Assembly: GCF_000517445.1 (NCBI RefSeq)
Contig: NZ_CP006965.1
Span: 1,464,681-1,528,680, forward strand
Origin: Thermococcus paralvinellae
GTDB taxonomy: Archaea > Methanobacteriota_B > Thermococci > Thermococcales > Thermococcaceae
Length of the DNA: 64,000 bases
Reading direction: 5' to 3'
Positions 16,180 through 37,893 of the stretch are shown here, one piece after another; the first letter of the stretch is position 1; every line of letters starts with the position of its first letter. The position numbers were made by a program, and so were the translations under genes. Under the pieces are notes generated by a model, which ran no database searches, was not told where the DNA came from, and worked only from the letters and a program-made list of their open reading frames with translations.

Positions 16180-16533
16180 TTAAACTGGATTAAATGCTCT
16201 GAGATTTGTTCTTTGATGTATTTTGGCGAAAACTTTATAAAGATATCCCAAAAAGTTAAGCTGGAAGTGGCCGGGGTGGTGTAGCCTGGTTAGCACAGGG
16301 GACTGTGGATCCCCTAGCCCGGGTTCAAATCCCGGCCCCGGCCCCAGAATTATTGTTCTCCCAGAATAAAAAGCTTCCAAAGCCAACTCCAGCAAACGCG
16401 ACATGTTAATGCCCTCTTTCCTTGCAAACTCAACCAAATCAGCCCGGATTCTCAGCGTTACATTACGCGTCTCTGAACGCTTCCGTACATCACCCGTGCA
16501 AATGCACGTGTATTTACACGTGTTTGGTCCCAT
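16180..16533 (-). CDS. Integrase N-terminal fragment (IntN), ribbon-helix-helix-like, running through attL
   Basis: The first 62 or so residues carry a CopG/Arc-like ribbon-helix-helix pattern: a basic beta strand 'RNVTLRIRADL' followed by two helices ('VEFARKEG', 'MSRLLELALEAF'). From residue 63 the frame reads through the antisense of tRNA-His (GPGPGFEPGLGDPQ) and into host DNA, so its present C terminus is an accident of integration. If the element is excised at att, the frame continues instead into the recombinase at 36858-37871, giving one protein of about 407 residues. The extant 117-residue product is thus the N part of a split SSV-type integrase. Start ATG 16533 has GGTGTCAGG upstream. 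Alternative: a free-standing CopG repressor whose end is tRNA read-through. Confidence 0.7.
   Translation of the reverse strand: MGPNTCKYTCICTGDVRKRSETRNVTLRIRADLVEFARKEGINMSRLLELALEAFYSGRTIILGPGPGFEPGLGDPQSPVLTRLHHPGHFQLNFLGYLYKVFAKIHQRTNLRAFNPV
16234..16242 (+). promoter_or_regulatory. TATA box of tRNA-His
   Basis: TTTATAAAG about 30 bp upstream of the tRNA-His 5' end in otherwise AT-rich sequence. It lies on the host side, so the tRNA promoter is not disturbed by the integration. Confidence 0.65.
16269..16346 (+). tRNA. tRNA-His (anticodon GTG), integration site
   Basis: A cloverleaf forms with an extra encoded G(-1) opposite discriminator C73, the histidine identity feature. The acceptor is GCCGGGG/CCCCGGC, the anticodon stem GGGGA/TCCCC encloses CTGTGGA (anticodon GTG), and the T arm is CCGGG/CCCGG around TTCAAAT. 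CCA is encoded at 16344-16346. The 3' part from 16303 onward belongs to the integrated element, which restores a complete gene, so the host keeps a working tRNA. Confidence 0.96.
16303..16346 (+). repeat. attL: 3' end of tRNA-His
   Basis: From CTGTGGATCCCCTAG through the T arm and CCA. It matches 37851-37893 at every position except one extra G after CCCCTA. It forms the left boundary of the element and the 3' half of the functional tRNA. Confidence 0.9.
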
Positions 16534-16593
16534 AGCCTGACACCAAAAAGAGTGAAGAACCCCGATTTAAACAACTTTCGCACGCAGAAACCG

Positions 16594-16615
16594 GTGTAAG
16601 GCAAATGCCTTACAC
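16594..16615. repeat. Palindromic repeat, copy 1
   Basis: Perfect 9-bp arms GTGTAAGGC / GCCTTACAC around AAAT. It lies upstream of IntN and just downstream of the 16642-17031 gene, so it could fold as a terminator or act as a binding site. Read on the minus strand, similarity to copy 2 continues for about 45 bp beyond the palindrome (TCGCAAAA-like, GTTG, then AATC.GGGGTTC-like segments). Confidence 0.75.
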
Positions 16616-16641
16616 TGAAAGCCAAAAAATAATAAAGGGCA

Positions 16642-17031
16642 TTAATCCACCTCGCCGTAAGCGAGAATGAAGAACGCCTCAAGGGCGGTGACGGAAGGAA
16701 CCCTCACACAGTCCTGCCTCCTTGGGAACAGCACGTGCTCGAAGTACTCAACGAATATCCGAAGCTTAAGAGCACTCTTTAAATCAACCAACCCCCGCTC
16801 AACAAAGTCGTCGAGGACGTGATTGAAGAGGTTCCTGGCATCAAGGAGAGCCTCACGGTCTGCATAAGTCCCAATCAGCAGGGAGTAAACCTCCCGCCAG
16901 AACTCTTTTGGCACGTCAAGTTCGCTCAAACGCTCAACCAGTGCCCCAGCCACCTTCTCATGGACCTCCTCAAGGTTTAGGCTTCCAATTTCCTGGAAGA
17001 GTTTGGATACAACCACTCCGACCGCTTCCAT
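16642..17031 (-). CDS. Helical protein of unknown function (element gene)
   Basis: 129 residues from ATG 17031, which has GGTGG upstream; a longer frame to a TTG at 17067 exists but is less likely. It is predicted almost wholly helical, acidic, with Leu/Val-rich amphipathic stretches ('MEAVGVVVSKLFQEIGSL', 'LFNHVLDDFVERGLVDLKSALKL'). I recognise no family. It sits between two copies of the palindromic repeat and next to IntN. A TTATGTTTAATT motif about 35-45 bp upstream of the start is also found upstream of the primase gene, so both may share a promoter type. Confidence 0.6.
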   Translation of the reverse strand: MEAVGVVVSKLFQEIGSLNLEEVHEKVAGALVERLSELDVPKEFWREVYSLLIGTYADREALLDARNLFNHVLDDFVERGLVDLKSALKLRIFVEYFEHVLFPRRQDCVRVPSVTALEAFFILAYGEVD

Positions 17032-17120
17032 CGCCAACCACCAACACCCGCCCCTCAAGATGAGCAATTAAACATAACTCTTGACCACTGAGTGAAGTCA
17101 TTAAGAAATCCCCTTTGGCT

Positions 17121-17144
17121 CGAGTTATCAAATTTGATAACTCG
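17121..17144. repeat. Perfect 24-bp palindrome
   Basis: Arms CGAGTTATCAAA and TTTGATAACTCG with no loop, so a dimeric protein site is more likely than an RNA hairpin. The CGAGTT half-site recurs at 17154 and 17248. Confidence 0.7.
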
Positions 17145-17499
17145 GAAGCCCCCCGAGTTTCATTTTTTGCAACTCGTGAAGTGTAAAAGAAGAGCGGAGA
17201 GGGCCTCTTTTCATTGGGCTGTTTTCATTAATTTTTGCATTTGAATGCGAGTTGCAAAAAATGCAACGCATAAACTTGTACATTCACTAAATCACGTCCA
17301 AAAAAGAAGGCACGAGAAGGCTTGAATTAGCTGAAAAACGATGCTAAAACAAAAAGTCTCACGAAAGGTGCGATACAGCGTTTTCCCATAATTTCCGGGC
17401 AACCCCCTTGGGCGGTTTGTGGCGCGACAATGGGGTGGACGAGCCCTCAGAAAACCCCGTTTTCATGTGGGTGTACAGAAATGTGCTCTTAGAGATGCC

Positions 17500-17523
17500 G
17501 GTGTAAGGCGTTTGCCTTACACC
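17500..17523. repeat. Palindromic repeat, copy 2
   Basis: GGTGTAAGGC / GCCTTACACC around GTTT. It lies downstream of the EVE gene's stop and extends as an imperfect longer repeat in opposite orientation to copy 1, so the pair brackets about 0.9 kb. Confidence 0.75.
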
Positions 17524-17562
17524 GAACCGTTCGCAAAAAAGTTGGTGAAGAAATCTGGGGGT

Positions 17563-17994
17563 TCAAAGAAGGCCTTCAATCAGCTTGTAATCCTCTTCCG
17601 GGATTTCTCTCATTGCCTTGCCCATCAGGTGGCCGCTCCAGCGCTTCTTGTTGGTGATGAACTTCAGCTTTGGAATGAGGGGCTTGAAGTCAAGTTCGCC
17701 GAGCTTTAGGGGCTTGATCTTAATCCTAAGTGGATAAGTCTCGTTGAGGTGAGGCGGGCTCTTGAAGATTCTGCTTGAGTCGGTGTAAGGCTCGCTAACG
17801 ACCTCAAAGATGCCGACGATTTTGGGTTCGAGAACTTCTTTGTTCTTCCTTTCCTGCTTGACGTAAAAGACGAGCCTGTCGCCAGGTTTAACCTTGGCGA
17901 TGGTGTTCTTGTGTCTCTTAGCCACGCCCCAGACGTTCTTCTTTTTGACAACCTCCCAGTTGTCGCGATTGGTGATGCAGAGCCAGTACTTCAT
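17563..17994 (-). CDS. EVE-domain protein
   Basis: 143 residues with the EVE (UPF0310, PUA-like) fold pattern: N-terminal '[23 protein letters not shown]', '[13 protein letters not shown]' and '[13 protein letters not shown]', then '[24 protein letters not shown]'. EVE proteins form an aromatic cage that binds modified bases in DNA or RNA and are often found with restriction systems. Here it is the last gene of the restriction operon, 15 bp after the transglutaminase-like gene, with GCGGTGG upstream. It may sense modified invader DNA, which is inference. Confidence 0.85.
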
Positions 17995-18009
17995 TTCAAA
18001 CCACCGCTT

Positions 18010-19074
18010 TTACTGTTGTCTTTGATACACATATCTTTTGTGGATTACCACCACAAGGACTCCAGTGGGAATAATTATCAGAGCCCACAATATCACAGTT
18101 GTTACGTAATCAACTCCCAGTTCAAGCTTCGCATAAGTTGTGGAGCCAGCAATGACTTTTCCGGTGCTTTCTCCCTTCCAACATACGGGAAAAGAACATT
18201 TTTTGCCCACAATCTGGTATTCCTTCGGACCAAGTTTAAACTGAGTTGTCCCCTCTTTTCCAGTCTCATTAGCCACAACACGCCGGGGTGCATCATACCT
18301 TTCGGGGAACCTTTCCATAAGATAAGTGCTCAGCACCTCCACGGTTGCACCTGAAACAGGCTCGTTGCCTTTAACGACTTTAACAACAAGCGTTCCCCTT
18401 TCGATGTACTCGTCTGAGACATCTTCCTTGTGATCGGGATTTGCGAGATCATAAGCCTCGACATATGAGAAATTCTTAAGCTGGCCAAACTGCTTGGGAT
18501 TCACGATGACAGGATTCTTGGGATTGCTTGGGTCGAATATTATTTTATAATTTCCGACATAATACTCAGCCCAGCTGTGATCTTCTCCAGGGGCTCTTAC
18601 GATTCTCGCCTTAACTCCCTCTTGGTTCATTAGGTACACAAAGACCTTGGCGTACTCTTCACAGTTTGCGAGTTTTGAATGGAGAACCCACTGAGGGGGA
18701 ACGGGAAAAGAGTTAAAGGGTCTGAACAGGTGAAGTTCACCCTGATTATTATGATAAAAACCGTATCCAGCCAATAACTTCTCAATGAGCGACATATTCT
18801 CAGGTTGTACAAAGTAAGGATTCGCAAAGTTTTGCTGTTCCCACGAGTATATTCTCAAAGCAAGTTCGTTTGGGTTCGTTGTGTTTAGACCAATTTGATC
18901 GAGGACTTCACTCATTATTTTGTCTCCTCTGATAAATTTGTAAGCTTGTGGAATGGTGATAAGTACCAAAGATATGACCACATATGCCATAAGGGTTTTC
19001 ATGATCACTCTTGTGATTTTCTTCAGAGCATATTTAAGAGTGACTTTCCGGATGTCTGGCTCCTTTGAATCCAT
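18010..19074 (-). CDS. Membrane transglutaminase-like protein in defence operon
   Basis: 354 residues. One membrane helix near the N terminus (about 28-45, 'LMAYVVISLVLITI') and one at the C terminus (about 320-342, 'VTTVILWALIIIPTGVLVVVI') suggest an outside-facing body. The transglutaminase-like core shows the catalytic triad order Cys138 ('LANCEEYA'), His166 ('DHSWAEYY') and Asp181 ('IIFDPS'). After it comes a beta domain (about 225-310, 'GTLVVKVVKGNEPVSGATVEV') of carboxypeptidase-regulatory/Ig type. It overlaps the upstream coiled-coil membrane gene by 41 bp, so the two are probably partners. The role is not known. Confidence 0.78.
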   Translation of the reverse strand: MDSKEPDIRKVTLKYALKKITRVIMKTLMAYVVISLVLITIPQAYKFIRGDKIMSEVLDQIGLNTTNPNELALRIYSWEQQNFANPYFVQPENMSLIEKLLAGYGFYHNNQGELHLFRPFNSFPVPPQWVLHSKLANCEEYAKVFVYLMNQEGVKARIVRAPGEDHSWAEYYVGNYKIIFDPSNPKNPVIVNPKQFGQLKNFSYVEAYDLANPDHKEDVSDEYIERGTLVVKVVKGNEPVSGATVEVLSTYLMERFPERYDAPRRVVANETGKEGTTQFKLGPKEYQIVGKKCSFPVCWKGESTGKVIAGSTTYAKLELGVDYVTTVILWALIIIPTGVLVVVIHKRYVYQRQQ

Positions 19075-19570: not shown

Positions 19571-19579
19571 CCCATCACC

Positions 19580-19897
19580 TCATACCATTTTCCTGTGGAG
19601 TTTCATCATTACATTGTCTTCCAATTCTTTGGCCCTCTCCCTTGGAAATGCCTTTTCAACTTCCATCCAGAAGGCGGAGGAATGATACGTCGTCTCTGCC
19701 TTCAAGTGTGCAAGTTCATGGACGAGCACGTAAAGTATCTCTTCCTCCTCCAGCTTAAGGACCGAAGGGTCGAGGGTAATTGTGCCATACCTGAATGAAA
19801 CCCTGGCGATTGAGGTTTTCAATGGCCTAACCTTGACCTTCACGTCCCTCTGGCAGTCCAAAAGTTCTCTGGCACGCTCAAGCAGCTCCTCCAACAT
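19580..19897 (-). CDS. YgjP/SprT-like zinc metallopeptidase
   Basis: 105 residues starting at ATG 19897 (GAGGTGCGCAGGC upstream); the longer frame to 20017 only shadows hsdR. The zinc motif is H60-E61-L-A-H64 with a third ligand at H72 ('YHSSAFW'), the pattern of the YgjP (DUF45/COG1451) branch of SprT-like peptidases. The product is short compared with typical YgjP proteins. Genes of this family are often next to type I restriction hsdR genes, and here it overlaps hsdR's end by 20 bp. The substrate is unknown. Confidence 0.82.
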   Translation of the reverse strand: MLEELLERARELLDCQRDVKVKVRPLKTSIARVSFRYGTITLDPSVLKLEEEEILYVLVHELAHLKAETTYHSSAFWMEVEKAFPRERAKELEDNVMMKLHRKMV

Positions 19898-22800
19898 GCC
19901 TGCGCACCTCTGGAACAACGGATTCCTCCACGAGCCTGTCAATCTCCTTAGAAAGTTCCCGGTATTTCTCGAGGTCGTCCCCTGTAACGGCCTCCATAAT
20001 GTCCTCAAAGAGGGCACTTGAGAGTCTTCTAACCGTTCTCGGATTCAGCTTTCTGAGACGCTTGAGCTCCCTCTGGAACCTCTTAAGCTCAACGTTCTCA
20101 AGCCCCAGATAATTTGAGGCGTAGAACTTAACCGACTCAACGAGGGACTCCTGCCATGTTCTTCCTGCCTTCTTCTTTTCATACTCCTCGGCCTGCTCCT
20201 CAAGGAGCTTCACCTGCTTTGCAAGGGCCTTAAGGTCCATATTCCTGTTGAGCCACTCCTCAAGGAGACGGTTGAGCCTCTCAAGGATGGCCTTGTAAAC
20301 GGGGTCGTGGGCGTTGTCTTCCGCCTGATAATACAGCTTATAGAAGCGCGCAACAATCTCGAAGGACGCCTCTTTTCCAGAAAGCTCGCCGAGCCTCACC
20401 TTAACAAGCTCCCTCATCGGCCCGACTTCCATATGCTCGTGGACGAAGCGGAGCAAATCGTCCCAGAACTTGCTCTTTTTACCCGTGAATCCAACGAGGC
20501 GGACGAAGGCAGAGTAAACCGCACCAACCGCCACCATGTCGTCCATGTAAGCGAGCCTCGCCGGGTGTGCCCCAAGGGAGCGGTACATTGAAACAACTTC
20601 ACGCAAGTCGTTGAAGAGCCTCACGGCCCTTGGCTCGTTGCCCTTGAAGTCGAGTGCGATCGGTGCGAGTATATTACGAACCCTGTCCATCTCCCCCTCA
20701 AGCTCCTTCCACCTGCCCTGTTTCCGGAAGGCCTTGAGAACATCGACCTCGATACCAATCCTTGAGAGCTCTTCCTTAACGCTCTGGAGTTTGTCCTCGA
20801 ACTCCTTCACCTTCTCTTCAATGCTCCTCGCAAAGTTGCGCTGGAAGTCCTCAAGCACCTTGGGATCCTGCTTTGCCAGCATCTCGTAAATGCTCTTCAC
20901 GCGGATTACCGCGGGCAAGAGGCCAACGCCGTCCACCACCACCCCAGTCTCTTTGTTTGGGTAAGGCCGGTTCACCCTCGTGACCGCCTGAAGGAGCCTG
21001 TGCTCGAATATCGGCTTGTAAAGGTACATTACTCTTAGAATCGGCGCATCGAAGCCCGTTAGGAGCATGTCGGTAACGATGAGAACCTTGGGATAATCCT
21101 CCTCTTGGAACCGCTCAACGATGAGCCTGTTAATGGTGTCATAATCTTTCTTTTGGAATTCTCTTCTCGTCTTGAGCCACCTCTTGAACTCCTCGATTAC
21201 TTCGCTCGTCTCGTTGTGCTGGTAGGTCATGACGACCTCGGAAAGCCTTTCAGCGTTCTCGCAGAGCTCTCTGAAGTGCTCGGCAACCTCAACTTTCCCC
21301 TCCTTTTCGAGCTCCCTAACCCTGGAGCAGAAGTATTCCCTAAACGCCCTGTCGAGGGCTTTCTTGAAGTGCACGCAGGCCTCCCTGTTCACAGCAACAA
21401 CCATCGCCTTGAAGCTGAAACCCATTGTGTCGTCATAAATCCTCTTGGCGATGTATTCGGCAAAGCGCTCGATTTCCCTGGGGCTCTCAAGGAAGACCCT
21501 CGACTTTCTGAGCTCTTCGGCGAGTTCCCTTGAGCTCATCTTCAGGCCCTTCTTTCGGCCCATGAGGAAGGCCTCGACCTCCTCGGGGTCGTTGAGCTGG
21601 TAAGCATTGATGAACGCCTTGAGCTTGTTCTCGTCGAGGGCAATTGAGACGCCTTCCTCCTCGATGACCTCATGGGTTATGTCGAGGGTGAAGCCGTCCC
21701 TGATGGAGTCGCTTATGAAGTAAACGTCGAGGAAGTACTCGCCGTCTTTGGGGTAAGCGAACTCCTGGAAGGTGTTTCTGCTCCTCTTGAATATCGGCGT
21801 CCCCGTGAATCCGAAGAACATCGCCCTCGGGAAGAGAGCCCTCATAACCGCGGCAAGCCGGCCATACTGGGTTCTGTGGGCCTCGTCGATGAGGAAGAGG
21901 ACCTCAGGCTTTTTAACGGCCTTCTCGGCCTCGAACTTCTCCTCACCTTTGACTTTCCTCACCCTTACCAGGTCCTTGAACTTGCCGTACTGGAACTTCT
22001 GAATCGTTGTTATGTGCAAACCGGTGGGGATAACCCTTCCGGTTTCCTCGCTCTTCATCATCTCCTCGATGCGCTTCCTCAGTTCGGAGATGTTCTTTAT
22101 GACATCAAAGTGTTCCCTGAACTCCCTGTCCTCAACCGCCTCGAAAACACCGGAGTGTTGCTCCTTGAGGTCGGTCCTGTCCACGACGAAGAACACAACG
22201 GGGTTCCGCCCTTTGTACCTGTTGAGAAACCAGTTCGCCACGAAGAACATTATGAACGTCTTCCCGCTCCCCTGCCACTGCCAGACAAGGCCGTTCCTCT
22301 TCCCGTCGCTTTGGGAGAGGTATTCCTCGATTCTCTCGATAATCCTCTTCGTTGCCCTGTACTGGTTCCACCTCGCGATGACCTTAATCCTTTTCGCGCC
22401 CCTCTCGTTCTTCCTGAAGAAGAAGGTGTAATACCTTAACACGTCGAGGAGCCTTTCGGGGGAGAGGAGGTCGAAGACATCGGGCCTTTCCTCGTTCGGA
22501 TACCTCCACTCGAAGGCCGGGGCACCCCCGGATTCCCTCGGCATCGTGGGGGTGTAAAGCTGCTTATCACCGTATGCCACTCCAAGCTGGACGAATCGGA
22601 AGAGTGGCTTGGAATATCTCTCATACCTCCTTATCTGGGTTAAGGCCTCCTCTTCCGTGCCATGAACCTTCGACCACCTTCTCCAGTCGATGTCCTCAAG
22701 CTCGATGATGCCCTTGGCCTTCGCCTCGATGATGACGACTGGAATGCCGTTTATGAAGAGAGTAAAGTCGGGCTTGATGTTCTCGGGAAAGCCCGGATAC

Positions 22801-23201
22801 TTGGCTTCATGAAGGAAGAAAAAGACGTTGTTGGCTGGATTGTCGTAATCAATGAGAATAACCCTGTCGTGCCTGCCCAGGGACGTGAGCGGAAGACCGT
22901 ACTTGATGTATTCCAGCATCTCAACCTCGTCGGCCTTTTCGAGGTTGCCCCTTATCTCCTCCCAGACCTTCTCCTCTTCCTCCTCAGTCAGGTTGGCAAA
23001 GAAGCCCCTGTTGAGCTCGCGTATCTTCTCTTCAAGGACGTTCCAGAGAAGGAAGCTTCCGAGCGAGCCTTCAAGCCCGCTGTACTTTGAAACCATCTTG
23101 TGCTCCTCAATTCCAAACTTTTCATTGCCGTCCTCCCAGCCGATTCGGAGAAGATTCTCCTTTATCTCCCGATGAACGGCGGACTCAGGTATCAGAGCCA
23201 T
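19878..23201 (-). CDS. hsdR: Type I restriction endonuclease subunit R
   Basis: 1107-residue motor and nuclease subunit. An N-terminal PD-(D/E)xK-type nuclease region ('PDFTLFINGIPVVIIEAKAKG', about 150-170) is followed by superfamily 2 helicase motifs: Walker A 'QWQGSGKTFIM' (about 310), DEAH 'FLIDEAHRTQYG' (about 425), 'GFTGTPIF' (motif III) and 'LTGFDAPILRVMYL', with 'HRLLQAVTRVNRP' as motif VI. The long helical C terminus binds the methylase. Length and motif order are complete, so the enzyme should work. Start ATG 23201 has GAGGTGAAAGG. It overlaps the small NTase-like gene and the peptidase gene. Confidence 0.93.
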   Translation of the reverse strand: MALIPESAVHREIKENLLRIGWEDGNEKFGIEEHKMVSKYSGLEGSLGSFLLWNVLEEKIRELNRGFFANLTEEEEEKVWEEIRGNLEKADEVEMLEYIKYGLPLTSLGRHDRVILIDYDNPANNVFFFLHEAKYPGFPENIKPDFTLFINGIPVVIIEAKAKGIIELEDIDWRRWSKVHGTEEEALTQIRRYERYSKPLFRFVQLGVAYGDKQLYTPTMPRESGGAPAFEWRYPNEERPDVFDLLSPERLLDVLRYYTFFFRKNERGAKRIKVIARWNQYRATKRIIERIEEYLSQSDGKRNGLVWQWQGSGKTFIMFFVANWFLNRYKGRNPVVFFVVDRTDLKEQHSGVFEAVEDREFREHFDVIKNISELRKRIEEMMKSEETGRVIPTGLHITTIQKFQYGKFKDLVRVRKVKGEEKFEAEKAVKKPEVLFLIDEAHRTQYGRLAAVMRALFPRAMFFGFTGTPIFKRSRNTFQEFAYPKDGEYFLDVYFISDSIRDGFTLDITHEVIEEEGVSIALDENKLKAFINAYQLNDPEEVEAFLMGRKKGLKMSSRELAEELRKSRVFLESPREIERFAEYIAKRIYDDTMGFSFKAMVVAVNREACVHFKKALDRAFREYFCSRVRELEKEGKVEVAEHFRELCENAERLSEVVMTYQHNETSEVIEEFKRWLKTRREFQKKDYDTINRLIVERFQEEDYPKVLIVTDMLLTGFDAPILRVMYLYKPIFEHRLLQAVTRVNRPYPNKETGVVVDGVGLLPAVIRVKSIYEMLAKQDPKVLEDFQRNFARSIEEKVKEFEDKLQSVKEELSRIGIEVDVLKAFRKQGRWKELEGEMDRVRNILAPIALDFKGNEPRAVRLFNDLREVVSMYRSLGAHPARLAYMDDMVAVGAVYSAFVRLVGFTGKKSKFWDDLLRFVHEHMEVGPMRELVKVRLGELSGKEASFEIVARFYKLYYQAEDNAHDPVYKAILERLNRLLEEWLNRNMDLKALAKQVKLLEEQAEEYEKKKAGRTWQESLVESVKFYASNYLGLENVELKRFQRELKRLRKLNPRTVRRLSSALFEDIMEAVTGDDLEKYRELSKEIDRLVEESVVPEVRRHVGGAA

Positions 23202-23394
23202 ACCCTTTCACCTCTGATCCAGATAACAACTCCTCAAGGGAACTAATAAACTTATCCAGACCTGAACTCCTCAGGCCCTTCAAAGCGAGGTTTCCGCTCC
23301 CGATGGGGTAAAGGCGAATCACCTCCGAGCCCATGAGCCGGGCCTTCTCATCGAGCAGGGCAAACTCTTCAAGCAGTCTCTCCCTTGTTATCAT
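23185..23394 (-). CDS. Shortened nucleotidyltransferase-like protein (probable remnant)
   Basis: 69 residues from ATG 23394, which overlaps the end of the winged-helix gene by 26 bp. The segment 'IRLYPIGSGNLALKGLRSS' resembles the glycine-rich strand-turn of nucleotidyltransferase-fold (DUF6036/MNT-like) proteins. The catalytic Asp-x-Asp that should follow ('KDID'-like) is missing, and the frame jumps to 'LDKFISSLEELLSG'. The usual family length is about 180 or more, so an internal in-frame deletion is likely. Paired with a winged-helix regulator, such genes form toxin-antitoxin-like modules. Whether the short form is functional is unknown. Confidence 0.5.
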   Translation of the reverse strand: MITRERLLEEFALLDEKARLMGSEVIRLYPIGSGNLALKGLRSSGLDKFISSLEELLSGSEVKGYGSDT

Positions 23395-24316
23395 CGCGGG
23401 AACCTCCAAAGTATTGACGGCAGAGCTCTTCGACCTCCTCGCGAGAGGGGAACGGATACGGCTTATCCACACCGCTGAGGTATTCAAGCAGTTCCCCAAC
23501 GATATCGGAGACATCGAATTTGGCCGCGAGCCTCTTGAGTTTGCGCTCATCAAAGCCCTTTCCCCTGAGGAGAACGATGGAGTAAAGCAGTCCCCTCGCG
23601 TCCCGGCCAAGCTTCAACGCATGAACGATGACCTCTTCGAGGCTGAGCTTTTGCCCGGGCCAGTAATAATGATAAACCCCCGATGAGATTAGCGGTAGCC
23701 CAAAGTCCGCGAACCGAGCCAGACCGGTGAGCTGAAACTCGCCGACGCTTTTTCCTTTAAAGGAGCTTGTGGCAAGGATCAGCTCTTCAACACCACTCCA
23801 GACGACGGAGGCGTTTGGGTCGAGTTCTTTCGCCTTAATCGAGTTCTGGAGGTAAAAGTATTCATCCGCGAAGGCCTTGAAGGGGGCAAAGCGCTCGCTT
23901 ACGAAGTAACCCTCCTTTTTCCTTCCCACAACCAGCGGTTCCATGAGCCCGTTGAGAACCCTGTGAAGCGTTGCCCTGCTCACGTTGGCCTTCAGCTGAA
24001 TGAGCCAAAGGGGCTGAGGTTTTTCAACTTCGAGGGTCGAAAGGACTTTGAGACGGCTTCCGGTTAGAATGTCCTCCATTTTGACGTGGGGGTACTCCAG
24101 CTTTATGCTTCTGAGGAGGTGGTTCACCCTGTTCTCAGCGGGCTTAACAACCATCGGCTTCTTCCCTTCAAGCTCGACGAGACCCTTCCCCTCAAGGGAG
24201 TGCAGGAGGGCGGAGAGCGTGCCCTTCGAGAGGCTGAGCTTATTGGCTAACTCGGTCATTGTGATTGGTTCTTCAATTGAGAGGAGGACCCTAAGCTCGG
24301 CCTTCGTGAGTGTCAT
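23369..24316 (-). CDS. Two-domain winged-helix regulator within the restriction locus
   Basis: 315 residues. It has an MarR-like winged helix at about 1-60 ('ITMTELANKLSLSKGTLSALLHSLEGKGLVEL'), a second helix-turn-helix at about 85-140 ('ANVSRATLHRVLNGLMEP') and a C-terminal domain ending 'EEVEELCRQYFGG' that I do not recognise. AbiEi-like or TA-associated archaeal regulators have a comparable layout. A TATA box and a flanking inverted repeat lie directly upstream, so it probably has its own promoter and represses itself. It sits between hsdS and hsdR and overlaps the shortened NTase-like gene. Confidence 0.72.
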   Translation of the reverse strand: MTLTKAELRVLLSIEEPITMTELANKLSLSKGTLSALLHSLEGKGLVELEGKKPMVVKPAENRVNHLLRSIKLEYPHVKMEDILTGSRLKVLSTLEVEKPQPLWLIQLKANVSRATLHRVLNGLMEPLVVGRKKEGYFVSERFAPFKAFADEYFYLQNSIKAKELDPNASVVWSGVEELILATSSFKGKSVGEFQLTGLARFADFGLPLISSGVYHYYWPGQKLSLEEVIVHALKLGRDARGLLYSIVLLRGKGFDERKLKRLAAKFDVSDIVGELLEYLSGVDKPYPFPSREEVEELCRQYFGGSRDDNKGETA

Positions 24317-24365
24317 GTCTCAAACTTCCGAACGATTTTATAAAAATGTTTGGGTTTTTGAGACA
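24316..24365 (-). promoter_or_regulatory. Leaderless promoter with flanking inverted repeat (operator)
   Basis: On the minus strand, a TATA box TTTATAAAA (about 24336-24346) lies about 22 bp before the ATG of the winged-helix gene, so transcription should begin at or next to the start codon. A 9-bp inverted repeat, TGTCTCAAA (24316-24324) and TTTGAGACA (24357-24365), brackets the TATA box and overlaps the start. This is the right place for an autorepressor. Confidence 0.6.
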
Positions 24366-24432
24366 GGACAATGTATTAATATTCCACGCTGAAACATTAA
24401 AGGAATGAAGGTGGGGGTTGCCCGCCCGACCT

Positions 24433-25776
24433 TCACCTCACCCTCACCTCGCCGGTGAGGAGCTTCTCCATGACGGCCCTCTTCATGCGTTCGAGCTTCT
24501 CCCGCTTTTCCCTCTTTGCCTCGATGGCCCCGTCGATGGTTCTGAGGATTTCGGCGATTTTCTTCTGCTCTTCGATGGGGGGGAGGGGGATTTTGAGTTT
24601 CATGAATTTATTTGGGTTAATTCTTTGTCTGCTGGGAGTACTTCCTGTTACAACCTGTTGGGAAATCTGGATGAAGTATTTGTCTTGAAGTGCATAATAA
24701 AGGAATTCAGACTTTAAATTTCTGACTGGTTTCAGAGGTATAAACTCTGTTGAGGATATTTTTTTGTAGTCGCTCTCTCCAGTAACAAGCCATATTTTTG
24801 GTATCCTTGGGTTAAGCTTTCCGAAAAGAACAACTCCCACATCTATAACAAATTTTGTGCTTTTTATAGAACTTCCTTTCACGATTTCAGGTTTTCCTGT
24901 TTCGTGAAATGCTGGAATGCTGTAAAGTTCAAATAACTCGTTCGGGAGCTTCTGTGGATCAATTGACTTTTTTATTCTCTCGGCGACTTCTCCAAGTTCA
25001 ACAACCTCCCACTCCTCCGGGATCTCGACCTTCCGCCCGTTCAGCTCGACGGTCTTGAAGCGGGTGTGGTTTATGCCCCTCGTTAAAAGCGTCTCCATCG
25101 TCCCCTTCTTGAGCCTCTCCAGCTTGGCGATGCTCTCCTCGATTGCCTGAATCGCCTCGTCAATCGAGCGGAGCACCCCGGCGATTTTCTTCTGCTCTTC
25201 GAGGGGTGGGAGAACCACTTTTACAGTTTTAACCAGATCGTGGTTAAGATGTTGTACATTAAGACCTTGAGAGAATGCTTTCATTATTGTCCTCACTGTG
25301 CCCCAAGAGAGCCAGTAAAAGAGGAAATGACTGTTGATATTCTCCTTGTCAAAGATTAATTTGGTGAGATCCATTGAGAATACTGCAATCCCATCCTCTG
25401 GAATAAGGTCGGAAGTTATAATCAGTGGGGCTCCGATGATAAATCCCTTTGTCATGTCTGTATTCGCGATTAAAATGTCTCCAGGGGAAAGGATGAATCT
25501 CTCTTTAACTTGAACAGACTCCTTAAGGTATATCCTTTCCGCAGTTCGCTTTACTCCACCCTCCTTCTCAAGGTCATTTATCGTGATGAACCTCTTTGAG
25601 GTTCTTGTCTCTGAAAGATCTGCCCTCCGATATGAGTACCCCCTCTGAAACTTTGCAATCTCTCCAAGCTCAACAACCTCCCACTCCTCAGGAATCCTCA
25701 CCTTCCTGCCGTTCAGCTCGACCTCCTTGAGCCTCGTCTCCCTGTAAAACTGGAAAGCTGGGAGGGCCTCACTCAT
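24433..25776 (-). CDS. hsdS: Type I restriction-modification specificity subunit S
   Basis: 447 residues with two target recognition domains separated by conserved helical spacers. Each half begins with a near-identical module (ELNGRKV.IPEEWEVVELGE at about residues 20 and 246) and ends with 'LPP(L/I)EEQKKIA..LR.IDxAI' coiled-coil spacers (about 190-230 and 400-440). The recognition domains differ, as needed for a bipartite asymmetric site. The start ATG 25776 overlaps the end of hsdM by 8 bp. It determines both methylation and cutting specificity. The recognition sequence cannot be predicted by reading. Confidence 0.92.
   Translation of the reverse strand: MSEALPAFQFYRETRLKEVELNGRKVRIPEEWEVVELGEIAKFQRGYSYRRADLSETRTSKRFITINDLEKEGGVKRTAERIYLKESVQVKERFILSPGDILIANTDMTKGFIIGAPLIITSDLIPEDGIAVFSMDLTKLIFDKENINSHFLFYWLSWGTVRTIMKAFSQGLNVQHLNHDLVKTVKVVLPPLEEQKKIAGVLRSIDEAIQAIEESIAKLERLKKGTMETLLTRGINHTRFKTVELNGRKVEIPEEWEVVELGEVAERIKKSIDPQKLPNELFELYSIPAFHETGKPEIVKGSSIKSTKFVIDVGVVLFGKLNPRIPKIWLVTGESDYKKISSTEFIPLKPVRNLKSEFLYYALQDKYFIQISQQVVTGSTPSRQRINPNKFMKLKIPLPPIEEQKKIAEILRTIDGAIEAKREKREKLERMKRAVMEKLLTGEVRVR
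24990..25050. repeat. hsdS internal direct repeat, distal copy
   Basis: 61 bp matching 25662-25722 with about eight differences; encodes the conserved module before the second recognition domain. Such repeats allow recombination that swaps recognition domains. Confidence 0.7.
25662..25722. repeat. hsdS internal direct repeat, proximal copy
   Basis: Partner of 24990-25050, 672 bp away, encoding the same module before the first recognition domain. Confidence 0.7.
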
Positions 25777-27628
25777 CGCCCATCACCCTGATTATGCCCT
25801 CAATGTAGGTTTTGGCCTTCTCCACTAACTCCTTCTCCCTCTCCTCGATTTCCCTGAAATCCTTGAACTCCTTGGCTAAGTCGATGTGCTCCCTCTCGTC
25901 CTCTGGGAAGACGTAGAGGCTGACGTTGAGGTTGTAGTCGTTCTTTCTTATCTCATCAAGGGCCACAACCCTCGAAAAGCCTTCCACCTCCTTGAACTCC
26001 CTGTAAGCCTTCACGATTTTCTCGATATGCTCCGGAGCGAGCTGGTTGAGCTTCCTGACCTCGGGGTGCTTCCTGAACTCCTTCGAGGCGTTGATGAAGA
26101 GTATCTTGCCCTTCCGCTCCTCGGGCTTGTTCGGGTTGAGCACCATTATGATTCCCGGCGCGCCGGTGTTGTAAAACAGCTTCTCTGGAAGGAGAACAAC
26201 GGCCTCGATGAGGTCGTCCTCGACGATTCCCTGCCTTATGGCCTTCTCGGCCCCGCCCCTGAAGAGGGCCCCGCTGTCGAGGACGATGCCGACCTTTCTC
26301 CGGGCGTAGTAGAGCATCAGCTGGACCCACGCCCAGTCCGCGGACTGCTTGGTCGTGTACCCGTACCTGTAAATGTGCTTTATCCTCCTGTCGCTTAGAC
26401 GGGCTTCATCGTAGCCGTCCTGGTTCCAGGGCGGGTTGGCAATGACGTAATCAACCTTTCCGTCCTCGACCCCGTTCTCCCTGAGCTCCTCCTCCCACCG
26501 GGGGTTTACGAGGCTGTCGGCGCCTTCGAATATCCTGAACTCCTGAATGCCGTGCAGGATGAGGTTGAGCTTTGACAGCGCCGCGGTGGTCTCGTTGAGC
26601 TCCTGGCCGTAGAGCATTATCGCGGGCTCACCGTCGAGGCCTTCCCTTTCGAGTTTCTCCTTGACGTACCTGTACGCCTCGATGAGCATTCCGCCGGAAC
26701 CGCTGGCCGGGTCGAGGACGTCGCTCCCGTCTTCAATGTCGAGCAACTCGACGAGGAGCCTTATCACTTCCCTCGGCGTGTAAACCTCCCCCTCCTTGGC
26801 CTTCTGGGGTGCGAAGTACGAGAGGATCCACTCGTATGCATCGCCCAGTATGTCGCTGTCGAACTCCGCAAAATCAACGCGGTTGAATATCTTGACGATC
26901 TCCTCAAGCTTGTGGAGGTTGTCCTCCTTGATGAAGCCGATAAGGCCGAGAACCTCGACGAGCTTCTTGAGGTCGCTTAGCTCTTCGTTCATCTCCGAGA
27001 TCTTTATGAGTGCATTTGCCATCTCCTTGATGCTTTCCCTGCTCTTCACAACCTCGTGCCAGGTGTAAAGTTTTCCAGTCTCCTCGTCGAAGAGTTTGTA
27101 ATACCTCTTGTTTGTGATGATGTAAGCCTGAACCTTGGGTTTGCCTTCCTTCATGAGATCCTGGGCAATTTTCATCCAGCGGTCGCTGATTGCCTTGTAA
27201 AACAGGAACACGAGCAAAGCTTTGTAATCGAGGCCGCCCCTTATCTGGTCGGCCGCGGCCTTGAGGAGTGAGATGAGCCTGTCGCGGGTGATTTTGCTCT
27301 CAGCCGGGAACTTCAGGCGGTAATATGTCCTTCTGAAGTCGTACACGTCTTTCCTGGCCGTTATCAGGCCGGCCTTTCTTAGGATTGAGAGAACTTCACC
27401 CACGTTTTTAGTCGTGAATTTTGGTTCTTTGATGCCCTTCTCCATGAGTTCCTTTCTCTTTTCCTCAAAGAGCTTTTCCACGTCTTCCTGGGTGAATTCT
27501 TTGTCCCTGAATGCGTCTTTTATCAGAAGGTATCTTTCGCGAACCCAGGACTGGAGTTCTTCGAGAATCGCCCACTCGTCGGCACCGTTTTTAACACCGT
27601 TCTTGGTCTTTGCCTTTGACCTCGGCAT
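25769..27628 (-). CDS. hsdM: Type I restriction-modification methylase subunit M
   Basis: N6-adenine methyltransferase of about 619 residues. An N-terminal HsdM helical domain contains 'DQIRGGLDYKALLVFLFYKAISDRW'. The SAM-binding motif I is 'VLDPASGSGGMLIEAY' (about 305-320), the catalytic motif IV is 'VIANPPWNQ' (about 405), and the C-terminal tail binds HsdS. Start ATG 27628 has GGTGACACCC upstream; the extra four residues back to 27640 are unlikely. First gene of the hsdMS unit; an AT-rich promoter with an inverted TAAGTTAAA/TTTAACTTA pair lies about 70-90 bp upstream. Confidence 0.93.
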   Translation of the reverse strand: MPRSKAKTKNGVKNGADEWAILEELQSWVRERYLLIKDAFRDKEFTQEDVEKLFEEKRKELMEKGIKEPKFTTKNVGEVLSILRKAGLITARKDVYDFRRTYYRLKFPAESKITRDRLISLLKAAADQIRGGLDYKALLVFLFYKAISDRWMKIAQDLMKEGKPKVQAYIITNKRYYKLFDEETGKLYTWHEVVKSRESIKEMANALIKISEMNEELSDLKKLVEVLGLIGFIKEDNLHKLEEIVKIFNRVDFAEFDSDILGDAYEWILSYFAPQKAKEGEVYTPREVIRLLVELLDIEDGSDVLDPASGSGGMLIEAYRYVKEKLEREGLDGEPAIMLYGQELNETTAALSKLNLILHGIQEFRIFEGADSLVNPRWEEELRENGVEDGKVDYVIANPPWNQDGYDEARLSDRRIKHIYRYGYTTKQSADWAWVQLMLYYARRKVGIVLDSGALFRGGAEKAIRQGIVEDDLIEAVVLLPEKLFYNTGAPGIIMVLNPNKPEERKGKILFINASKEFRKHPEVRKLNQLAPEHIEKIVKAYREFKEVEGFSRVVALDEIRKNDYNLNVSLYVFPEDEREHIDLAKEFKDFREIEEREKELVEKAKTYIEGIIRVMGDE

Positions 27629-27696
27629 GGGTGTCACCAAAGTAATTAATGTCGTTATCGCTTAAAAGCTTTTTGGTTTTAGTTTAGCTTAATTGA

Positions 27697-33138: not shown

Positions 33139-33183
33139 TGAATTAACACTTGTGTAAGTATTCTTTGGAATTGTCCGGAGGAC

Positions 33184-33732
33184 TTAGATCGAATCTAATC
33201 TCAGGAGCAGTTCGTGGGCGGCCTTCTCCTGCGTGTAATGCAGGATATAATCTAGCCTTTTGTGGCCAGTTATTTTGGCAATGAGTTGGGGTGGATACTT
33301 TTTTTCTGCTAAGTAACCCACGAACGCGTATCTTAGGCTGTGGGTGTTGAAGCCGTATGTTTTCTTCACCCACGTTGATATTTTGATGACGACTCCTTTC
33401 TTACCATGCTTCTGAAGTTCCCGTTCAAGGAGCCCCTCGAGGGCCAATAAATCCGCTTTTTTGACCTCTCTGGGCAAGATCATCAATCGTTGATATCCGT
33501 CTCGCCGTTTCTCAACTGTAATGAATGCTTCCCGTGAGTATTCTCTTGAGACCTTGGAGATGAATTCAATTGCCTCTCCAATTCGTGAACCGTTTCTAAG
33601 CTGTGTCAAAAGTATCACTAAGTACATTCTTCTCTTGAGTGCCTTTACACCTTCCTTCTTTCTTGCCTCTCTGAGATCTTTGAGCAGAAGCCGATAAGTC
33701 TCTTCGTAATCCAGGCCTTGGTCCCAGCCCAT
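33184..33732 (-). CDS. Minimal tyrosine recombinase (catalytic domain only)
   Basis: 182 residues from ATG 33732 (AGGTGG upstream). All catalytic residues of the tyrosine recombinase family are in order: Arg50 ('LRNGSRIGEA'), H131-S-L-R134 ('NTHSLRYAF'), His157 ('ITGHKRL') and Tyr166 ('LHYTQEKA'). It lacks the usual N-terminal core-binding domain, so it is a stand-alone catalytic domain. It could act in resolution of multimers, in inversion, or as a regulator of the main integrase. It is divergent from the 33895 gene, across a region with an inverted repeat. Confidence 0.78.
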   Translation of the reverse strand: MGWDQGLDYEETYRLLLKDLREARKKEGVKALKRRMYLVILLTQLRNGSRIGEAIEFISKVSREYSREAFITVEKRRDGYQRLMILPREVKKADLLALEGLLERELQKHGKKGVVIKISTWVKKTYGFNTHSLRYAFVGYLAEKKYPPQLIAKITGHKRLDYILHYTQEKAAHELLLRLDSI

Positions 33733-33755
33733 GATGGCCACCTAATTGTGTTTTT

Positions 33756-33836: not shown

Positions 33837-33894
33837 CAGAAGTGATCCGTTAGTTTTAACTCCCCACCCCCCGCTCGGAGCCGAGGTGTTAGAC

Positions 33895-34311: not shown

Positions 34312-34472
34312 TTTTTTAGTGAAGAGCAGGCCCCCTGAAGTTCATGTACCTTTTCATTCGTCGGTTTACCCTCAACTTCTCGCTGTCCATTTCCATATGA
34401 CATCTTCTTCATTCAATCGGGGGAGTTATATTTAATTGCCCACTCCCAACTTCAGATTTTGGGTGGATTTGT

Positions 34473-35636
34473 ATGGCAGAGGCGATGGTGAAAAGTGTAT
34501 ACGAGGCCCAGCTTCCAGCCGGAATCCAAATCGTCCAGAGGACACGCGGGGAAAGATACGGAATACCAGCCAGCGAAATCGAGAGGTACCTCAACGAGCT
34601 GGAGCTCAAAGACATCAGTGAGAAGCACAAGAAAAAGCAAATCCAGTTCCTCAAAGAGTTTCTCTCAGTCCTGCCCGTGCTCGGCCAGTCATCGGAGCAG
34701 ATTTACGTTGTAAGTGCTGTGACCATCGAAGAGTACCTGGAATACCTGGACTCCCTCAAGGGCAAGGACGGCCAGAATCTCGGATACAAGGTGAAAAAGG
34801 ACAGAATCGCGACTGTGAGAAGGTTCTTGACGGCAGTTGGTATCAACGACCCTGAGATAATAAACAGGCTCAAAGCCGTGGAAACAGAGCTCAGGAGAAA
34901 GTGGAAGATGCACGTTGCAATGAACACCAAAACGGTCACCAAGGAAGACATTGACAACCTCTTTCGGGCCCTCGAAGACCTCTTTGAGGATTATGAAATA
35001 AAGGAGGAGCAGTACTGCAAGACGCTCGCGTTCCTGCTGTTGCTGGCAACGACGGGCAGAAGGAAAGAAGAAATCGCGAGGGCGCACATTAGCTGGTTCG
35101 ACTTTGAGCACAACATAATCAGACTTCCCCACTCAGCGACTAAAGTCGGCAGACAGTTGAAGGAAGTGGAAGGCTTCGAGATTCTCCCGTTGCATCCGGA
35201 GGCAAGGGCCTGCCTCAAAATGTACACAACCAAATTCAAATACGCTGTCGAAGCGAACGATGGATACCTCTTCGCCGTGCCGACAAGAAAATCCGAGAAC
35301 CCGACGTTCTTCGATGCACTCATCAAAAAGCACAAGAGCCTGAGGGTGAAGCTCATTTACAGCCCGGGGACGCTCACGGCGGGCATGTTCAGGAAGTTCT
35401 TCATCCAATATTGGTATGAAAAGGGCGGAAACGAGCTCATACTCAAAAAACTCGTCGGGCACTCGCCGAGCACGGTTCACGAGCTCCATTATGCAAGGGG
35501 ATTGCACCACAAGAAGCTCTTTGAGGAATACAACAGGGTCTTCGGCAACGTCCAATTCCTGACGAAGAAACAGCGGGCGATGGTTTCACGGTATCTCCCC
35601 AAAAAGGGCAAAAGAAAGCGCAGGAGAAGAAGGTGA
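34473..35636 (+). CDS. Second tyrosine recombinase / integrase-like protein
   Basis: 387 residues. The N-terminal SAM-like core-binding domain covers about 35-150 ('SEKHKKKQIQFLKEFLSVL', 'GYKVKKDRIATVRRFLTAVG') and the catalytic domain about 155-360. Visible catalytic residues are Arg196 ('ATTGRRKEEI'), Lys224 ('SATKVGR'), Arg307 in 'TAGMFRKFF', His330 ('VGHSPST') and Tyr340 ('LHYARG'). The first position of the HxxR box is Gly (G304), where the att-linked integrase has Lys. The C terminus is a strongly basic KKGKRKRRRRR tail. It is intact and not at an att site, so it may be a paralogue or a relic of an earlier element. Confidence 0.8.
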   Translation: MAEAMVKSVYEAQLPAGIQIVQRTRGERYGIPASEIERYLNELELKDISEKHKKKQIQFLKEFLSVLPVLGQSSEQIYVVSAVTIEEYLEYLDSLKGKDGQNLGYKVKKDRIATVRRFLTAVGINDPEIINRLKAVETELRRKWKMHVAMNTKTVTKEDIDNLFRALEDLFEDYEIKEEQYCKTLAFLLLLATTGRRKEEIARAHISWFDFEHNIIRLPHSATKVGRQLKEVEGFEILPLHPEARACLKMYTTKFKYAVEANDGYLFAVPTRKSENPTFFDALIKKHKSLRVKLIYSPGTLTAGMFRKFFIQYWYEKGGNELILKKLVGHSPSTVHELHYARGLHHKKLFEEYNRVFGNVQFLTKKQRAMVSRYLPKKGKRKRRRRR

Positions 35637-35727
35637 GATTTCCTGTGTCTTTCTTTTTTCTTGGTTCCAAAGTTGGGCTTAGTTCGCTTTTCATGTCTCA
35701 GGGTGTCAAAGACTTCTGCATGGAAAC

Positions 35728-35761
35728 CTTTAAAAGTGACGGCCCGTCACTAGTGATGGGG
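35728..35761 (+). promoter_or_regulatory. Leaderless promoter with 17-bp palindromic operator
   Basis: A TATA box TTTAAAA at about 35729-35735 lies 26-32 bp before the GTG start of the ATPase gene. Immediately after it is AGTGACGG-C-CCGTCACT (35735-35751), a perfect palindrome, with a further AGTGAT half-site. A protein bound here would block initiation. Confidence 0.6.
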
Positions 35762-36852
35762 TGTTCACTTTGTTCAGCACGCGCCCGATAAGGGATGAGA
35801 AAAACCTCCATGGAGAAGCACACAGGAGGGCGGTTAGGGAACTCAAAAATGCTGTTGATGAAGGCGACTTTGTGGCGATTTTGGGTTCGAGGAGGGTCGG
35901 CAAAACCAGCGTCATCAACGTCTTTCTCAACAAGCACCGCTCGAAATACAATTACCTTTATTATGACCTGGCCTTTGGAATGGGGCGTGAGGCAATAAGT
36001 TACACCGAACTCGTCCCCGTTTCGACGAACATACCAGAAGAGCTAGAATACTCCGCCACACTGAGCCTCGGAGTCGTGAAGATGGATGTTAAGCCAAAGG
36101 GAATCGCCGAGTTCCAGAATGCGTTTCTGAACCTCCTCAGGCACCTGAACAGGTCGGGAAAAAAGACGGTGGTGGTATTTGATGAAGCCCAGGTCCTTCC
36201 GAGGTTCGCTCCACTGAACATGCTCGGCATGCTTCAGACGATTTCAGACGGCTTTGAGAATGTAACGGTTGTCCTCTCTGGCTCGATGCCTGGCCTTCTG
36301 GAGAGGATAATAAACCCCTCAGGAGATAAGCCATTCTTCGCGAGATACGTTGAGAAAATTCACATCTCTAGGTGGACGGTTGAGGAAAGTGTTGAGTACT
36401 TGAGGAAGGGTCTTCCAGATGCCCCAGAGGAGGAGCTTTATGAGGCCGCCCGGGAGCTTTCAAATGTTCCAGGTTTTCTGGCGTATTACGGTAAGCTGAG
36501 GGTTAAGGTGGATTCCCACAGGGAAGCGTTGGCGAGGACGATTCATCACGCTGTCAGGCTTTGGAAGAAGGATTTGAGAGACTTCATCAGGATATACAGG
36601 TCTCCCGCGTATATAATCGCCCTGAAAAGGATCGCCAAGGGGCCCTCGTATGGCGTGACGACCGAGGAAGTCCTTACTGAAATAACGTCCGTTGTGGGAA
36701 TCTCCGAAAGACGGGCAAAGGAGGTCCTCAAGAACCTCGTTGATGGGGGTTTCTTAGTAAAACCCAAGCGGGGCGTTTACCAGATTCCAGAGCGTCCCTT
36801 ACGGCAGGCGATTCTCGAAACGAGATTGGAAGAAATTGAGAAATCCATCTAA
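35761..36852 (+). CDS. Archaeal-type AAA/STAND ATPase with C-terminal winged helix
   Basis: 363 residues of the archaeal ATPase family (PF01637-like). Walker A 'GSRRVGKTS' is near 42, Walker B 'TVVVFDEAQVLP' near 137, sensor 'VVLSGSMPGLLE' near 175, and a winged helix at about 285-345 ('GVTTEEVLTEITSVVGISERRAKEVLKNLVDGGF'). The start is GTG 35761; no Shine-Dalgarno is seen, in keeping with a leaderless transcript from the TATA box just upstream. Such ATPases are common on archaeal mobile elements, and their job is not settled. It converges on the integrase gene with a gap of 5 bp. Confidence 0.82.
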   Translation: MFTLFSTRPIRDEKNLHGEAHRRAVRELKNAVDEGDFVAILGSRRVGKTSVINVFLNKHRSKYNYLYYDLAFGMGREAISYTELVPVSTNIPEELEYSATLSLGVVKMDVKPKGIAEFQNAFLNLLRHLNRSGKKTVVVFDEAQVLPRFAPLNMLGMLQTISDGFENVTVVLSGSMPGLLERIINPSGDKPFFARYVEKIHISRWTVEESVEYLRKGLPDAPEEELYEAARELSNVPGFLAYYGKLRVKVDSHREALARTIHHAVRLWKKDLRDFIRIYRSPAYIIALKRIAKGPSYGVTTEEVLTEITSVVGISERRAKEVLKNLVDGGFLVKPKRGVYQIPERPLRQAILETRLEEIEKSI

Positions 36853-36857
36853 GGCAC

Positions 36858-37781
36858 TCATACGAGCTTTGCCCCGAATTTCAATTTTTTGAAGACTTTA
36901 TCGTAAACGCTCTGAAGGCTCTCCGTTGTGTGGTGGGAGTAATGGAGCGCGTTTATATCGCCCCTGATTGAGTGCCCCATGAGAAGCTTCTTAACCGTTG
37001 CATTGCCGTTCCGCCTGTCCCATTCCTGCGAGAAGAATTTCCTCATGTGCTTGGGCCGGATCGGCTGGTTGGCCAGCTCTTCCTTTCGAATGAATGGTTT
37101 TTCGAGGCTGAAGTAAGAGATGACTGGCTTATCGGGGTTTGGGCTGTATCTCTCGACATACTGCTTCAGCAGGCTCTGAACTTCCTTTGTTATGAACGTT
37201 ACCCGCGCCTGGCCCGTTTTGGCGACGTTTGGTGGCACTTTGATGAGTCCTCGGTCAATGTCAATATACAAAAGGGGTAATTTTGTGAGCTCATACACTC
37301 TAAGACCGCTCGTCGCCATTATTAAGAGGCCCAGCATGATTTTGTTGGCAATTCTTCCGGAGACTTCTTCCCTTTTCGCAAACTGAACCCTGTGTATTAC
37401 CTTTAGGAGGGTTTGGACGTCCTGAACGGTGATGACTGTCATGTCCACTCCAACATATCTCGGGCTTTTGAGGTTGTGTTCAAGCGGAATGCCGGCGATT
37501 CTGAAGAGCTTTTTGAGATATGTGATGTGCTTGCGATACATGGAGGGGGAATACTGTTTCTGAAGGTTCTGGAGGTGTGAAATCAAGTCTTCGACCGTGA
37601 ACGACCAGTAATCGCCATGTTGGGTTGTTTTGTCCAGGAATTTATGAACCACACGGTTCACGAACTTTAGATGGTGTTCAGCAACGTTGTTGGCCTTTAG
37701 TTCGAGTAAAAGAATGTCGAGGTGTCTTTTTGTTATTATGTACTGGTTGTCGTCCGCTCGTTCATGTACAAATGCTGGCAT
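36858..37781 (-). CDS. Integrase catalytic fragment (IntC), abutting attR
   Basis: Tyrosine recombinase fragment of 307 residues from ATG 37781. The core-binding domain is at about 15-115 and the catalytic domain at about 118-300. Catalytic residues are Arg161 ('TSGLRVYEL'), Lys188 ('AKTGQAR'), K244-H-M-R247 in place of HxxR, His270 ('MGHSIRG') and Tyr281 ('LHYSHH'). Lys in the first position of this box is known from SSV-type archaeal integrases. The frame stays open upstream through 37871, into attR, and there reads GDPQ in the same frame as IntN at attL. It is therefore the C-terminal part of a split gene. It has no obvious promoter of its own. Confidence 0.85.
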   Translation of the reverse strand: MPAFVHERADDNQYIITKRHLDILLLELKANNVAEHHLKFVNRVVHKFLDKTTQHGDYWSFTVEDLISHLQNLQKQYSPSMYRKHITYLKKLFRIAGIPLEHNLKSPRYVGVDMTVITVQDVQTLLKVIHRVQFAKREEVSGRIANKIMLGLLIMATSGLRVYELTKLPLLYIDIDRGLIKVPPNVAKTGQARVTFITKEVQSLLKQYVERYSPNPDKPVISYFSLEKPFIRKEELANQPIRPKHMRKFFSQEWDRRNGNATVKKLLMGHSIRGDINALHYSHHTTESLQSVYDKVFKKLKFGAKLV

Positions 37782-37850
37782 GGCGACGTTTTGTCCTTCA
37801 AAATTTTCTGCTGTCTCCGTCCTTCTTTTGGCGAATAAAGCCCTTTCAGG

Positions 37851-37893
37851 CTGTGGATCCCCTACCCGGGTTCAAATCCCGGCCCCGGCCCCA
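37851..37893 (+). repeat. attR: duplicated 3' end of tRNA-His
   Basis: 43 bp matching attL (16303-16346) with one G missing after CCCCTA. It is not part of a functional tRNA, so free to drift. It marks the right end of the element. Confidence 0.9.

Follow-up and report, generated by a model that had tools for sequence, protein, structure and literature searches.

A self-splitting integrase with a ribbon-helix-helix N terminus and predicted operator-like octamers in a Thermococcus paralvinellae mobile element

The element and its attachment sites

The analysed stretch, referred to here as the window, comprises 64 kb of the 1.96-Mb single-contig genome of Thermococcus paralvinellae and carries a 21.5-kb mobile element inserted in the tRNA-His gene. 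The element differs in base composition from its surroundings, with a G+C content of ~0.45-0.58 across ~16.3 to 37.9 kb against 0.40 in the neighbouring DNA. At its two ends lie the fragments of a split tyrosine integrase: an N-terminal fragment (IntN) with a ribbon-helix-helix (RHH) domain of the CcdA type, and a catalytic fragment (IntC). Three palindromic octamers occupy the first codons of IntN. Similar elements are present in relatives of the same family, which are denoted below by genome (G) and locus (L) numbers. The features of the locus are listed in Table 1.

The two attachment (att) cores, attL and attR, cover the 3' half of the tRNA gene including the anticodon, which is a trait of type I integrases. 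They are identical except for one G that is absent from attR (CCCCTA-CCCGGG versus CCCCTAGCCCGGG). This deletion is private to T. paralvinellae, as the element of G054, with a 97% identical IntC, and that of G048, with an 89% identical IntC, do not have it. Owing to the loss of this base, the T. paralvinellae element may be locked in. Reconstruction of attB indicated that precise excision would yield a host tRNA-His gene one base short in the variable loop.

An empty site was found in G004, a genome of the same genus. To the left, 3.4 kb of it reaching to where the tRNA gene ends match the window at 89%; to the right, the match is at 88% and covers positions 38211-38497. Approximately 317 bp to the right of attR (37894-38210) are absent from this empty site. 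They were considered as a part of the element and then left out of it, since their first 45-83 bp are an intergenic repeat dispersed in many Thermococcaceae genomes. A perfect inverted repeat (ttttgagatg-ca-catctcaaaa) is located near 37957-37978, also to the right of attR.

Table 1. Features of the tRNA-His element, with positions in the window
Feature	Positions	Strand	Basis or remark
tRNA-His(GTG), target gene	16270-16346	+	ARAGORN; sole complete copy by genome search
attL core, from the anticodon loop to the 3' end of the tRNA gene	16303-16346	+	44/43-base match to 37851-37893, one gap
attR core, one G missing	37851-37893	+	G intact in G054 and G048
IntN open reading frame (ORF), 117 residues: RHH and linker, followed by antisense tRNA-His and flanking host DNA	16180-16533	-	ORF translation
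RHH domain (CcdA type), residues 23-54	16372-16467	-	Pfam CcdA; 12/12 homologues match
Three palindromic octamers, 12-bp period (ACACGTGT, ACACGTGC, GCACGGGT), predicted RHH site	16492-16523	-	Motif comparison
GGTG ribosome-binding site ahead of ATG 16533	16541-16544	-	Read from sequence
B recognition element (BRE)/TATA-like promoter element of IntN (gcgaaagttgtttaaatc)	16564-16581	-	Read from sequence; kept in G054, G048, G107
IntC, catalytic fragment from ATG 37781, 307 residues	36858-37781	-	ORF; domain search
In-frame continuation upstream of IntC across attR (GDPQPERALFAKRR...), joined to IntN again on excision	37782-37864	-	Translation
Second, intact tyrosine recombinase, 387 residues	34473-35636	+	Domain search; catalytic residues kept, distant relative of IntC
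Third, short recombinase, 185 residues, phrog_9208, without the N-terminal part of that family	33184-33741	-	Domain search
Prim-Pol replication protein, 1181 residues	28687-32232	-	Homology
Type I restriction-modification set, complete (HsdR, HsdS and HsdM), and an intervening MarR-like/HVO_2833 regulator	19878-27640	-	Homology
EVE-domain protein	17563-17994	-	Homology

A split integrase with an RHH N terminus

The IntN frame is open through attL on the minus strand, running into ...GPGPGFEPGLGDPQSP, where attL reads ...ILGPGPGFEPGLGDPQSP. Traced upstream of its ATG, the catalytic frame is open out of attR and reads ...VGDPQPERALFAKRR...MPAFV in the same phase as IntN. An earlier, sequence-only reading of this DNA had proposed exactly such a shared phase, together with a single integrase of about 407 residues on excision, and translation of both cores confirmed the phase. 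When the halves were joined in silico with the crossover placed in the anticodon loop, ahead of the base missing from attR, an uninterrupted frame of 407 codons resulted, so that the proposed length holds for a crossover at this place. When the crossover was set 3' of the missing G, the frame ended as FEPG-stop. The restoration of a single frame therefore depends on the crossover site. The SSV1 integrase exchanges strands at the anticodon loop, and the integrases of pTN3 and pT26-2 (IntpTN3 and IntpT26-2) require that loop (PMC8371274). Given this published crossover at or near the anticodon loop, the open 407-residue join is the expected one. The sequence shows that the gene is split when the element integrates at the anticodon loop of tRNA-His, and that excision there would restore one ORF of 407 residues.

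The joined protein contains the residues R261, K288, K344-H-M-R347, H370 and Y381 (joined numbering), and therefore the R...KxxR...Y signature of type I integrases, known as the catalytic signature of SSV-type integrases (PMC8371274). As in type I integrases, attP lies within the integrase ORF and integration separates IntN from IntC. The window IntC matched only PF00589 in Pfam. Phage_integr_3 (PF16795), which has been reported for the pTN3-like, pT26-2-like and SSV families, is an annotation trait and not part of the type I definition; an unsplit homologue on a metagenomic contig (L040, described below) matched it at 4e-5 and 24.0 bits, under the cutoff of 27.

The trimmed window IntN scored 22.8 bits against Pfam CcdA (cutoff 22.4), and the best match among the 12 homologues reached 1.1e-8, in agreement with the earlier proposal of an RHH domain fused ahead of the catalytic domain. 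A PDB profile search with the RHH region returned weak matches only (CcdA, MazE7, CopG and omega; E 0.2-0.9), which ranked below two designed repeat proteins. A single-sequence fold of IntN showed a strand-helix-helix arrangement at low confidence and was too poor to use. The RHH protein is under purifying selection, as the ratio of nonsynonymous to synonymous substitution rates (dN/dS) was mostly 0.06-0.4 between elements over 36 codons, a measure that does not distinguish selection acting on the free element from selection acting once it is integrated.

Palindromic octamers at the start of the IntN gene

The minus strand reads ACACGTGT-AAAT-ACACGTGC-ATTT-GCACGGGT right after the IntN start codon. 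The motif RCACGTGY occurs three times in the 64 kb, and two of these occurrences belong to the octamer array. The third lies at 16731-16738 inside the adjoining ORF 16642-17067; it is found at the same place in G054, is absent from G048, and is possibly due to chance. The octamer pair itself has a single location in the window, the IntN start. Exact pairs were present at two IntN starts and nowhere else in 61 genomes, while all but one of the matches with 0-1 mismatch in 20 genomes were at IntN starts.

A second class of octamer, with ATACGTAT repeats, occupies the equivalent place in the tRNA-Gln element of G015, the tRNA-His element of G019, G004 and L040. From one class to the other, T:A is replaced by C:G in both halves of the dyad; the replacement of A:T by G:C that is seen within class B (G052) likewise affects both halves. 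The palindrome was kept through these symmetrical changes while the encoded Tyr became Cys. Across 11 loci, octamer 2 showed 42 of 44 palindromic pairs, compared with 35 at the best other offset (the midpoint of octamers 1 and 2).

The octamer class is accompanied by a difference in the protein. In the RHH strand, the second residue that faces outward is Ser at every ATACGTAT locus (VTLSVR versus VTLRIR or VTVTIR), and the RCACGTGY loci have Arg or Thr there. When aligned to F-plasmid CcdA, this residue falls on what we take to be a base-contacting position. In viral sequences, 33 stretches matched the ATACGTAT pair; as none has an RHH behind it, they were treated as chance matches. Three viral stretches matched the ACACGTGT pair. 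The octamers are predicted to be an operator or an arm site of the RHH within the integrase's own gene, and they lend indirect support to the RHH as a DNA-binding dimer. The pattern leads us to infer strongly that such a dimer binds the tandem octamers, RCACGTGY here and ATACGTAT in the relatives.

The same architecture in other genomes

The two halves share the core peptide and its phase in G054, G048, G102, G019 and G015, the last of which is targeted to tRNA-Gln. The rejoined tRNA-His proteins of these relatives are 407, 407, 407 and 405 residues long. The tRNA-derived peptide by itself accounts for the many 57-78 matches and is trivial evidence, because any similar tRNA yields that peptide. 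The shared phase of the halves is not trivial, being the same in these five further split elements and in unsplit genes.

Three unsplit genes were identified. In G004, one ORF of 424 residues (L044:10546-11820) contains the RHH, the tRNA-antisense peptide and the catalytic domain; it is located on a 466-kb contig among chromosomal neighbours, with no tRNA within 10 kb. The metagenomic contig L040 encodes a fusion of 343 residues that is over the cutoff for both Pfam CcdA (24.0 bits) and Phage_integrase (53.9 bits), with the tRNA-antisense peptide between the two domains. Its structure model had a good recombinase core, for which XerA was the best PDB match, and an RHH part of lower confidence. 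The Archaeoglobales contig L032 carries a fusion of 362 residues, as well as a separate IntN-type RHH ORF downstream that runs into tRNA-Leu. These fusions show that the RHH-integrase architecture also exists unsplit in other archaea. Together with the five split elements and the empty site in G004, they bear out the earlier view that the gene is split by integration in the SSV-type 'suicidal' manner.

Evaluation of alternative explanations

The best explanation, to which we give a probability of about 0.7, is that the element encodes an archaeal type I ('suicidal') tyrosine integrase that begins with a CcdA-type RHH domain and carries attP in the linker leading to the catalytic domain, and that the RHH controls int through the octamers. 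Were the RHH frame instead a stand-alone gene lying beside attL by chance, the integrase would start at ATG 37781; that codon exists, the catalytic domain of IntC is intact, and the RHH-side frame hits a stop in the present attR. This arrangement is hardly credible, as the phase is common to the five other split elements, three unsplit fusions exist, and the stop in attR stems from the private one-base deletion. None of the intact homologues found has a stop between the RHH and att, and the separate pair of genes that the sequence-only reading had named as its refutation was not seen in any of them. It is also very improbable that the repeats are explained by a conserved peptide (NTYxNTY) instead of a DNA site. 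The octamers are indeed coding and NTYxNTY recurs in class A, but Thr is always encoded by ACG, the change from Tyr to Cys is coupled with a matching change in the other half of the dyad, and the peptide differs between the classes.

The chief rival to operator function is that the octamers are arm-type sites. The RHH would hold the attP arm while the catalytic domain acts on the core, as with the N domain of lambda Int, and the leftover IntN would be jobless. The N domains of archaeal integrases serve DNA recognition or multimerisation (PMC8371274), which agrees with this idea, and so does the fixed distance of ~200 bp between octamers and core. However, the octamers flank the core on one side only and are found at the gene start, where sites for self-regulation typically lie, in all the lineages observed, the distant L040 among them; the pTN3 and pT26-2 enzymes, moreover, recombine in vitro with little beyond the core (PMC8371274). 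We therefore consider arm sites a doubtful alternative, and both roles could coexist. Somewhat less likely still is an ordinary suicidal integrase in which the RHH serves only to help the complete enzyme multimerise and integration leaves IntN and IntC as pseudogenes. Such an enzyme would resemble IntSSV2, whose N terminus governs multimerisation (PMC8371274), and the decay of several IntN remnants is in keeping with it; it does not account for the conservation of the palindromic octamers at the DNA level, nor for the fact that promoter, start and RHH are all intact in, for example, the integrated copies of G000, G054, G048, G107 and G052.

Several points weigh against control of int by the RHH. 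The octamers are located downstream of the start codon and not over the TATA box. The column shuffles, of which 4 in 20,000 reached 42 palindromic pairs, ignore the relatedness of the loci, and the association between octamer class and strand residue may rest on few evolutionary events. Several IntN remnants in other genomes are truncated or broken, which indicates that the fragment is not always kept. Finally, the sequence-only reading had suggested, as a check, looking for full-length homologues on free plasmids; no free element was found in the PLSDB plasmid or INPHARED phage records with the joined protein and the G004 fusion as queries, collections in which pT26-2 itself was not found either. 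Two scans of viral-contig proteins likewise found none.

Proposed regulation by the leftover fragment

In the preferred explanation, an RHH dimer would sit on the octamers at the beginning of the gene that encodes it, and we consider it moderately well supported that this binding would repress int. Since IntN retains its promoter, ribosome-binding site, octamers and RHH after integration, the leftover fragment should still be able to bind at the octamers; it would be expressed, bind its own gene and hold its own transcript low. A reason for keeping this transcript low is that it is antisense to the sole tRNA-His gene. The fragment could also silence the int gene of an incoming related element of the same octamer class. 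Excision would require an intact integrase supplied by a related element, or possibly the element's own second recombinase.

Co-resident IntN copies were present in two genomes. G015 has an intact class A copy and a class B copy without the first octamers, while G019 has a class A copy and a truncated remnant. That co-resident copies differ in class or are broken fits class-specific silencing, in what is a small sample. We put forward, as a tentative proposal that may well prove wrong, that integration turns the integrase gene into a repressor gene, with the RHH silencing int on both resident and incoming related elements, which would amount to integration-dependent immunity from a single gene in an archaeon. 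The frequency of self-splitting integrases in hyperthermophilic archaea is an open puzzle, and the maintenance of suicidal integrases has been called paradoxical (PMC8371274). If the N fragment is a working repressor, the split would be a regulatory switch and not merely a cost, which would explain why a self-destroying integrase pays.

Comparison with known systems

IntpT26-2 and IntpTN3 (Badel et al., 2019, PMC6972569; 2021, PMC8371274) have the same location of attP in the ORF, the same IntN/IntC split, the tRNA 3' half as target and the R...KxxR...Y residues. Type I integrases of Thermococcales are also covered by Cossu et al. (2017), as cited in PMC8371274. The integrase described here may differ from IntpT26-2 and IntpTN3 in its CcdA-type RHH and first-codon octamers, which PMC6972569 and PMC8371274 do not mention. 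The SSV1 and SSV2 integrases of Sulfolobus viruses have the split principle and the catalytic signature in common with it, and to our knowledge the sequence of their N part is not RHH-like. That part is described as a multimerisation region, and SSV1 represses its integrase operon through a separate RHH protein, F55 (PMC8371274).

In mycobacteriophage BPs and its relatives (PMC4557955), attP likewise lies inside the gene of a DNA-binding regulator, and integration leads to a C-terminally shortened product. The regulator in BPs is a dedicated repressor that carries a degradation tag, whereas here the putative regulator would be the integrase itself, and no BPs-type membership was assigned. The intS gene of KplE1 (PMC2951348) is comparable as an integrase gene beside attL whose own product is predicted to repress it. 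There, the whole IntS binds attL sites in the promoter, while in the present case a separate RHH domain is predicted to act on octamers within the ORF, and the fragment alone is left after integration. The 2021 review (PMC8371274) contains no mention of RHH or CopG, and ribbon-helix-helix had no match in PMC6972569; Badel et al. (2020) was outside this coverage. The split mechanism is already known, and the RHH N terminus with operator-like octamers is new as far as our literature coverage reached.

Successive integrations and other genes of the element

Traces of earlier integrations were identified in three genomes. In G039, an old truncated IntN is located beside tRNA-His (L016). In G019, a remnant of the G039 type (93% over 1.6 kb) has been displaced to attR by a newer element and stands in frame with the new IntC (L049/L050), and the same pattern was found in G011 (L047/L048). 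The joined RHH and integrase of G019 and G011 were considered as functional intact genes and rejected, since they represent older IntN remnants displaced to attR, with G039 as the earlier state. Such displacement would be one natural way for hybrid integrases to arise, which accords with the published proposal that suicidal integrases are reassembled from pieces of differing origin (PMC8371274).

The second recombinase of the element, which might resolve dimers or help excision once the integrase is split, is also present near IntC and on the opposite strand in G054, G048, G019, G015, G041 and G102.

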